A DNA stretch of 37,330 nucleotides from an uncultured Lachnospiraceae bacterium (GTDB lineage: Bacteria > Bacillota > Clostridia > Lachnospirales > Lachnospiraceae): contig CALWAW010000108.1 of NCBI GenBank assembly GCA_944375845.1, positions 1 to 37,330 of the forward strand. Direction: 5' to 3'. Below the pieces are notes generated by a model. It was not told where the DNA came from. It did no database searches and saw only the letters and a program-made list of their open reading frames with translations. Position 1 is the first letter of the stretch. Each line of letters starts with the position of its first letter. Shown here piece by piece: positions 11,247-18,506 of this stretch. The position numbers were made by a program, and so were the translations under genes.

Positions 11247-11271
11247 TCACTCTTCACTATTAACATCTGCA

Positions 11272-11297
11272 GCTCGATTTCGCTAAGCTGCTTTCGG
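11272..11297. repeat. Short repeat copy C1, abutting the rpsH stop codon
   Basis: 26 nt that match 12043-12068 at 25 positions. Both copies lie at the 3' end of a ribosomal gene: this one touches the rpsH stop codon and the other is one base from the rpsN stop codon. On the mRNA strand it contains CTTAGCGAAATCGAG. Confidence 0.85.
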
Positions 11298-11699
11298 TCA
11301 CCACACGAAAGCAAGCACTTCTCCGCCTACGCCCTGGGCCCTGGCCTCTTTATCGGTCATAACGCCCTTGTTGGTGGAGATGATGGCAATTCCAAGACCG
11401 CCCAGCACCTTGGGAAGCTCCTCGGCGCCGGCGTACACGCGCAGGCCGGGCTTGGAGATTCTCTTTAAGCCGGTGATGATCTTCTCGTTCTTGTCCTTGC
11501 CGTACTTGAGGGTCACGCGGATGGTCTTGAACGCACCATCCTCTACTAAATCATACTTGGTGATGTATCCCTCGTCAACTAAAATATCTGCAATGGCCAG
11601 TTTCATTTTAGATGCAGGAATGTCTACTGTATCATGCTTTGCAGTATTTGCGTTACGGATTCTTGTAAGCATATCTGCAATGGGATCGCTCATAGTCAT
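11298..11699 (-). CDS. rpsH: 30S ribosomal protein S8 (uS8)
   Basis: Central-domain 16S rRNA binder and, in E. coli, translational repressor of the spc operon. 133 residues from [20 protein letters not shown]. The RNA-binding C-terminal half contains [20 protein letters not shown] and ends VLAFVW. AAGGAGG precedes the ATG. Unusually, both flanking spacers hold repeated sequence. Confidence 0.98.
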
Positions 11700-11738
11700 T
11701 TTGATTGCCTCCTTATACTTATTTGCATCTTATGGGAG

Positions 11739-11773
11739 CGGGTATGTTCCCTCCACTAACCTCGGCCTGCGCC
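11739..11773. repeat. 35-nt direct repeat, copy A1
   Basis: Identical over 35 nt to 11945-11979. Begins CGGGTATGTTCCCTCC on the plus strand. On the mRNA strand it includes GGGAACATACCC, a potential small hairpin. Confidence 0.95.
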
Positions 11774-11844
11774 GGATTGGAAGATACATCCTCGCTCTGC
11801 TCGGAGTATCCACTTTCGCACTAACCTCAGCCTGCGGCTGACGC

Positions 11845-11859
11845 CTTGGCTTCGCCAAG
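11845..11859 (-). other. Perfect hairpin inside the repeat cluster
   Basis: CTTGGC-GAA-GCCAAG on the mRNA strand, within an outer 5-bp pairing (11840-11844 with 11868-11872). It lies in the segment unique to the first A-B unit. No U-tract follows. Confidence 0.6.
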
Positions 11860-11870
11860 TGCTTAATGCG

Positions 11871-11943
11871 TCGCTAAGGGTCGGGAACGGCCTCGCACTA
11901 AGCTCAATCTTCGCCTGGCGGCTCGATTTCGCTAAGTTGCTTT
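11871..11943. repeat. 73-nt direct repeat, copy B1
   Basis: Identical over 73 nt to 11993-12065. It carries two TCGCTAAG motifs (plus strand), one at its start and one near its end. Confidence 0.95.
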
Positions 11944-11944
11944 A

Positions 11945-11979
11945 CGGGTATGTTCCCTCCACTAACCTCGGCCTGCGCC
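11945..11979. repeat. 35-nt direct repeat, copy A2
   Basis: Exact copy of 11739-11773. It starts one base after repeat B1 and is separated from B2 by only 13 nt, against 97 nt between A1 and B1. Confidence 0.95.
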
Positions 11980-11992
11980 TTTCGGCTTGCCC

Positions 11993-12065
11993 TCGCTAAG
12001 GGTCGGGAACGGCCTCGCACTAAGCTCAATCTTCGCCTGGCGGCTCGATTTCGCTAAGTTGCTTT
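11993..12065. repeat. 73-nt direct repeat, copy B2
   Basis: Exact copy of 11871-11943, ending just beyond the rpsN stop codon. Its last part is also the 26-nt element C2 (12043-12068). Confidence 0.95.
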
Positions 12066-12069
12066 CGGC

Positions 12070-12255
12070 CTACCAAGAAGCCTTCTTCACTCCGGGGATC
12101 TGTCCCTTATATGCCAGCTCACGGAAGCAGATCCTGCAAATTCCGTATTTTCTCAGATATGCGTGGGGACGGCCGCAGATCCTGCAGCGGCTGTATTCTC
12201 TGGTGGAGAACTTGGCCGGTCTCTGCTGTTTGATCTTCATTGAAGTTTTTGCCAT
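12070..12255 (-). CDS. rpsN: 30S ribosomal protein S14, type Z (zinc form)
   Basis: The short, zinc-binding S14 of the small-subunit head. 61 residues, starting [20 protein letters not shown] and ending [11 protein letters not shown]. Four cysteines in CRIC and CRIC pairs (C-x2-C-x12-C-x2-C) bind zinc. Encoded after rplE as usual. Its 3' end borders the repeat cluster. Confidence 0.98.
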
Positions 12256-16692: not shown

Positions 16693-16771
16693 TTCCTTAC
16701 TCCTTTCTCGTGTCAACTCTGTCGAGTGTGTTTTGTTATCACGGCATAGGGTTCGCCGTATAGGAATTCAT

Positions 16772-16798
16772 CGCGGCCGCTTCGATGCGCGGGCCGCG
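16772..16798 (-). other. Hairpin in the rplW-rplB spacer
   Basis: CGCGGCC and GGCCGCG pair around a 13-nt loop in the 137-nt gap upstream of rplB. It is GC-rich with no U-tract in the leftward direction. Confidence 0.45.
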
Positions 16799-16829
16799 CC
16801 GGGGTCAGGCAGCCTGCCTTCGGCAGATC

Positions 16830-18412: not shown

Positions 18413-18439
18413 CTTTTAACCTCCTGTTATTCTACAGCG

Positions 18440-18468
18440 GATTGCCAGACGGCTTTCACCGGGCAATC
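18440..18468 (-). other. Hairpin in the rpsJ-rplC spacer
   Basis: GATTGCC and GGCAATC (7 bp) enclose a further CGG/CCG pairing. The 94-nt spacer has no U-tract after the stem, so it is not a typical terminator. Confidence 0.5.
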
Positions 18469-18506
18469 ATCCTAGAACAGGCCGAAACCAATTCCAGATT
18501 TTCCTA

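Follow-up and report, generated by a model that had tools for sequence, protein, structure and literature searches.

Why should one spacer of the S10-spc operon, which is among the most conserved operons in bacteria, be filled with exact repeats? The window analyzed here, 37,330 nt in all, is an entire contig of a draft genome (1.94 Mb, 138 contigs) from the Lachnospiraceae, a family of major gut anaerobes. The operon lies on its minus strand in the order rpsN-(370 nt)-rpsH-(136 nt)-rplF, and the S10-Clostridia leader was recognized at its head. A sequence-only reading had described a pair of 35-nt repeats and a pair of 73-nt repeats, interleaved as A-B-A-B between rpsN and rpsH, and complementary GTTCCC and GGGAAC motifs. 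All of these were confirmed (Table 1).

Layout of the array

Read along the coding strand, the spacer runs a1-b1-linker-a2-b2 and then reaches the Shine-Dalgarno sequence of rpsH. Each unit has a hairpin a of ~62 nt and a hairpin b of ~45 to 59 nt, and a short linker separates one unit from the next. All of hairpin a and the 5' arm of hairpin b make up the 73-nt repeat, and the 35-nt repeat takes in the 3' arm of b and the first part of the linker. Therefore, the A-B-A-B pattern is a single tandem duplication of a ~122-nt unit. Hairpin a1 is directly 3' of the rpsN stop codon, and the final G of that codon opens its helix P0 (GGCC/GGCC). The inner part of b1 was itself matched by R1, our covariance model of hairpin a, at 46.1 bits. 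In b2, a nested module of ~96 nt takes the place of the short b1-type apical part, and congeners and one other genus have a comparable module (L011, L013, and L122).

The sequence-only reading had also proposed that the spacer folds into hairpins. Its coding strand folded better than all 100 shuffles (z of -5.4), and a separate run gave z of -3.9 for the sense strand and -0.4 for the antisense strand. The GAA or GAAA loops that it had proposed were found in b1 (GCC-GAAA-GGC) but not in hairpin a, which has a GCCA loop here. There was no terminator-like site (stem plus U-tract) on the minus strand within the spacer, and an intrinsic terminator was rejected as an explanation of the array.

Table 1. 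Positions of the array, its neighbors, and related features (window coordinates unless a locus is named)
Feature	Positions	Strand	Evidence or detail
rpsN (S14), upstream gene	12070..12255	-	Pfam PF00253; TAG stop 12070-12072
rpsN-rpsH spacer	11700..12069	-	370 nt
73-nt repeat, two copies	11871..11943; 11993..12065		100% identical; offset 122 nt
35-nt repeat, two copies	11739..11773; 11945..11979		100% identical
Hairpin a1: P0 and core with U-U mismatch and tandem G-A	12008..12069	-	R1 78.5 bits; covariation
Hairpin b1, closing stem GUUCCC...GGGAAC	11952..12010	-	GUUCNN/NNGAAC covariation across species
GTTCCC motifs	12005..12010; 11883..11888
GGGAAC motifs	11952..11957; 11746..11751
Linker AUACCCGUAAAGCAA, unit 1 to unit 2, overlapping the 5' end of a2	11937..11951	-
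Hairpin a2, second copy of a, core exact	11886..11947	-	R1 75.4 bits; exact 73-nt repeat
Hairpin b2, GUUCCC/GGGAAC stem as in b1, apex swapped for nested module	11746..11888	-
Nested module in b2: a3-like hairpin and GGAUAC...GUAUC hairpin	11775..11870	-
a3-like hairpin	11809..11870		R1 59.4 bits
GGAUAC...GUAUC hairpin	11783..11811
Shine-Dalgarno AAGGAGG of rpsH, outside the array	11708..11714	-
rpsH (S8), downstream gene	11298..11699	-	Pfam PF00410
Hairpin a 5' half, truncated, directly after rpsH stop (rpsH-rplF spacer)	11269..11297	-	93% over 29 nt
rplW-rplB spacer	16717..16829		113 nt
rpsJ-rplC spacer	18413..18506		94 nt
Antisense hairpin a copies, rpsH-rplF spacers	L115 1972-2147; L113 1970-2116; L117 1980-2027; L183 1376-1423

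A covarying RNA family in the Lachnospiraceae

The genome that the window comes from has hardly any of the repeat outside this spacer. Only one clear copy was found elsewhere, 3' of a gene on contig C109 that reads as pyruvate:ferredoxin oxidoreductase (named from the gene's sequence), along with the truncated copy behind rpsH. A search of that genome alone would therefore have wrongly refuted the idea of a repeat family. Relatives gave a different picture. The pattern TTAGCGA-N8-36-TTAGTGCGA was present in 43 of 299 Lachnospiraceae genomes, and a longer form of it was present in 55 stretches of named genomes. Cultured carriers of the element include Fusibacillus kribbianus, Faecalicatena contorta, and Mediterraneibacter agrestimuris. 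Of 120 Lachnospiraceae genomes sampled, 56 had R1 matches, numbering from 1 to 41 per genome, so the unit is not private to this site. When 196 Clostridia genomes were searched with R1, there were five matches inside the Lachnospiraceae and one weak match outside. The hairpin family is nearly restricted to the Lachnospiraceae within the Clostridia.

The structure of hairpin a is supported by compensatory changes. In a first alignment of 42 hairpins, 73 cells were doubly changed, compared with 18.7 ± 3.9 in shuffles; the TTAGCGA and TTAGTG letters are conserved by choice in this alignment because its sequences were picked with the TTAGCGA...TTAGTG pattern. We extended the analysis to 129 copies taken from R1 matches, a set that allows variation but is aligned to R1. 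It had 305 doubly changed cells, compared with 89.9 ± 7.3 in shuffles (0 of 500), and 11 of 13 base pairs were compensated with changes on both sides, whereas sliding controls were far lower. The noncanonical positions are constrained as well. The U-U mismatch was present in 127 of 128 copies, and the outer tandem G-A pairs were present in 126 and 125 of 129 copies while the adjoining pairs vary. The inner noncanonical pair covaries (G-A in 62 copies, A-C in 43, and A-U in 4), with a mutual information of 0.745 and a maximum of 0.132 in 2,000 shuffles. The loop is variable among copies.

Hairpin b and helix P0 behave in the same manner. An exact 6-bp partner for the b stem was found in 56 of 66 cases, compared with 3.0 expected from shuffling and 12.1 from swapping, and the variants include GUUCGC/GCGAAC, GUUCUU/AAGAAC, and GUUCAC/GUGAAC, among others. 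In 47 strict copies, the P0 variants GACC/GGUC and GGCC/GGCC covary. The RNA family itself is well supported, and the intergenic repeat family that the sequence-only reading had guessed at is a set of covarying RNAs found across the Lachnospiraceae.

The array spacer had no match in Rfam 15, either at the gathering threshold or even at an E value of ≤5, and a search of 20 relatives returned nothing except an unrelated L10 leader. The papers searched for the core motif and for intergenic repeats of Lachnospiraceae, a set with few subscription papers, gave no description of the element, and the string TTAGTGCGAG was absent from them. The family, widespread in the Lachnospiraceae, is apparently undescribed.

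Copies at different loci of the same genome were more alike (identity of 0.66) than copies from different genomes (0.55; 0 of 300 permutations). Therefore, duplication or conversion inside genomes is at work. The recent duplication or conversion that had been proposed for the window fits this difference and the exact copies. Draft contigs of congeners break near the arrays (G001:C38, G006:C23, and G006:C54), and copy numbers there are therefore probably underestimated.

Stop codons and operon junctions

A spacer of a few nucleotides, which the sequence-only reading took to be normal at this position, is indeed the rule at most junctions of this operon. However, it is not the rule for rpsN-rpsH in the Lachnospiraceae, where the spacer ranges from 12 to 370 nt in 89 genera and the window has the longest. 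Among 21 S10-spc operons, the only junctions that were regularly expanded were rpsJ-rplC, rplW-rplB, rpsN-rpsH, and rpsH-rplF (medians of 119, 85, 134, and 136 nt, respectively), whereas the median spacers of the remaining junctions were ≤31 nt. The window's own rplW-rplB and rpsJ-rplC spacers are expanded and hairpin rich without an R1 match, and the rplW-rplB spacers of G004 and G008 contain the repeat.

The element was found at rpsH in 33 of 90 genera (18 in rpsN-rpsH and 25 in rpsH-rplF). In these spacers the first copy mostly begins within 1 nt of the stop codon (-1 to +1), the second about +61 to 77 nt from it, and a third about +113 to 137. P0 starts within a stop codon in 37 of the 47 strict copies (TGA in 19 and TAG in 18). 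Stop anchoring is not universal, the figure being about a third of 40 copies sampled outside rpsH. Orientation is biased, with gene-strand and replication-strand bias taken together in these counts: 32 sense and no antisense copies in rpsN-rpsH and 32 sense and 9 antisense copies in rpsH-rplF. Eight of the nine antisense copies of hairpin a lie at least 68 nt from the stop codon.

The element also recurs in other operons. It is present at seven pgk-tpiA loci (in four genera and at three more loci), and sampled copies lie at rpsG-fusA, ssb-rpsR, rplK-rplA, nusG-rplK, and grpE-dnaK. Others are 3' of rpsJ, a GGGtGRT gene, and an oxaloacetate decarboxylase beta gene. Because pgk-tpiA, ssb-rpsR, grpE-dnaK, and further nonribosomal contexts carry the element, we excluded an autoregulatory leader for ribosomal proteins. 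A diverged copy lies outside protein operons, between two tRNA-Ser genes with GGA and TGA anticodons (L019 270-403, G006:C54).

Genera without the family have unrelated hairpins in these spacers or have short spacers. Four rpsN-rpsH spacers without it (146 to 321 nt; L126, L148, L177, and L191) contain long, different hairpins, and both of their strands fold well. Expanded rpsN-rpsH spacers in family-free genera folded even better (mean z of -3.4, 15 spacers). It seems that hairpins of several unrelated kinds use the rpsN-rpsH slot. This strong folding suggests that structure matters at rpsN-rpsH. Folding on both strands means that other palindromes may simply be tolerated there.

Proposed operon punctuation and its rivals

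Our best reading, to which we give about an even chance, is that the element acts as RNA-level punctuation of highly expressed operons and has spread through duplication or conversion within genomes. A role in shaping mRNA processing, which the sequence-only reading had suggested, is plausible. The hairpins would fold in the transcript right behind the terminating ribosome, halt 3'-to-5' exonucleases once the polycistronic mRNA has been cleaved, and impede ribosome run-on or reinitiation. The flanking genes would then be separately stable and separately translated, and copies would spread and be homogenized within a genome through duplication or gene conversion. U-tract-free hairpins inside E. 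coli operons guard the segment upstream of them against 3'-to-5' decay (PMC5927463). We infer that 3'-end protection, with separation of the segments, may be the main role, because the hairpins lie between stop codon and Shine-Dalgarno sequence, are tail-less, and are usually in abundant messages and because of the E. coli precedent. Punctuation is supported by the covarying structure, the stop anchoring, the sense bias, the recurrence at the same junctions, and the missing terminator tail. Counting against it are the patchiness of the family, the antisense copies in rpsH-rplF, the closer likeness of copies within a genome (as in a spreading repeat), and the element-free genera with unrelated hairpins or short spacers instead.

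The main rival is a selfish or tolerated interspersed repeat (MITE or BOX-like) that survives behind the stops of codirectional genes as the least harmful place and needs its structure for mobility. This is possible, if doubtful. The patchy presence with variable copy number, the within-genome similarity, and the tandem, nested, and antisense copies would all be expected of such a repeat, and there is a precedent in the pneumococcal BOX, RUP, and SPRITE elements, which are considered parasitic (PMC3049150). However, it fits poorly with the same few junctions being used in many genera, with a stop codon drawn into the helix, and with the strong sense bias. Furthermore, we identified no mobilizing enzyme or target duplication for the element, and blastn searches of phages and plasmids gave no match to it. 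There was also no link to the Y1 tyrosine transposase (PF01797), which was found in 6 of 12 element-rich and 7 of 12 element-free genomes and not in the window's genome. This led us to reject a REP/RAYT system.

The helix that starts 0 to 1 nt from the stop codon, and pairs it, could also be a translation termination device like the stop-proximal REPs of E. coli, in which a hairpin ≤15 nt from the stop would stall the ribosome and lower or time synthesis of the upstream protein. There is a reported precedent: REPs <16 nt from a stop codon down-regulate translation and stall ribosomes (PMC12306157). However, copies 60 to 230 nt away cannot act in this way. Also, upstream genes such as rpsN, rpsH, pgk, and rpsG typically belong to the most heavily translated genes of a cell, and slowing all of them together seems costly. 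We consider this explanation unlikely. An RNA polymerase signal (processive antitermination or attenuation) inside long, heavily transcribed operons would agree with the position in long operons, the strongly structured RNA, and the lack of an intrinsic terminator tail, but the position follows stop codons, not promoters or leaders, and known antitermination RNAs work from the 5' end of the transcript, making such a signal very improbable. Finally, a simple local duplication or assembly error private to the window's genome, which the sequence-only reading had itself raised and which the exact repeats, 138-contig draft, and few other copies in that genome might suggest, is scarcely credible and as a full explanation is refuted by relatives, since congeners have related arrays at this position and G280, a single-contig genome of 3.5 Mb, carries three copies in tandem with a spacing of 113 nt, which shows that arrays are real.

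More tentatively, punctuation might extend further. The U-U and tandem G-A signature might have its own dedicated reader, a protein or an RNase, and the element might be a general stop codon punctuation mark that sets core gene stoichiometry, a Lachnospiraceae-specific and so far undescribed class of structured cis-acting RNA. If so, the core genes concerned would be those for the ribosome, translation factors, and glycolysis. A shared element at selected junctions of S10-spc and other core operons points to a family-wide way of splitting polycistronic messages, one overlooked by annotation. With the conserved noncanonical pairs as a handle, a binding partner can be sought directly, and the stop codon pairing makes a termination-linked mechanism testable.

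The family may resemble REP or BOX elements in its way of working, and we assign it to neither. Like the REP/BIME elements of enterobacteria, including stop-proximal REPs and the malE-malF stabilizer, it consists of intergenic hairpin repeats behind stop codons within operons, and REP/BIME elements can shield the mRNA upstream of them or influence termination. Unlike them, it is a larger modular RNA (a plus b, ~118 nt) with covarying noncanonical motifs, is mainly sense, is nearly limited to one bacterial family, and had no Y1/RAYT association that we could find. REP sequences are intergenic palindromes behind genes with many copies per genome; copies here number only 1 to 41. Its likeness to BOX of Streptococcus pneumoniae (and to RUP and SPRITE) is one of modular layout: BOX is modular, with variable tandem internal modules (boxA-boxB(n)-boxC), and is transcribed with neighboring genes, likely affecting their expression. 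However, hardly any bacteria other than a few streptococci carry BOX, whereas this family is in dozens of genera at the same core junctions. The Correia/NEMIS repeats of Neisseria are also small and cotranscribed with genes and are reported RNase III targets; inverted termini and target duplication were not seen in this family. Our proposed way of working is that of the protective structures in programmed mRNA decay of E. coli (PMC5927463), where hairpins without U-tracts lie at segment borders, but those are mostly in coding regions and form no repeat family, whereas here one homologous family is reused at many junctions. The TAACTGA repeats of Beggiatoaceae (PMC4679880) are likewise intergenic, overrepresented near translation genes, and found inside ribosomal protein operons, but they are heptamer direct repeats mostly ahead of start codons, with no covarying hairpin family.

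A short variant of the element (CUUAGCGAGGU...ACGAGCUUAGUGCGAG) occurs in strain UC5.1-2E3, Hungatella, and relatives (L061, L068, L073, L087, L090, and L098, among others). Its outer helix, GGTATAAT (or GGTATACT) with ATACC, places a -10 box inside the element, and judging from these letters, the short variant may double as a promoter.
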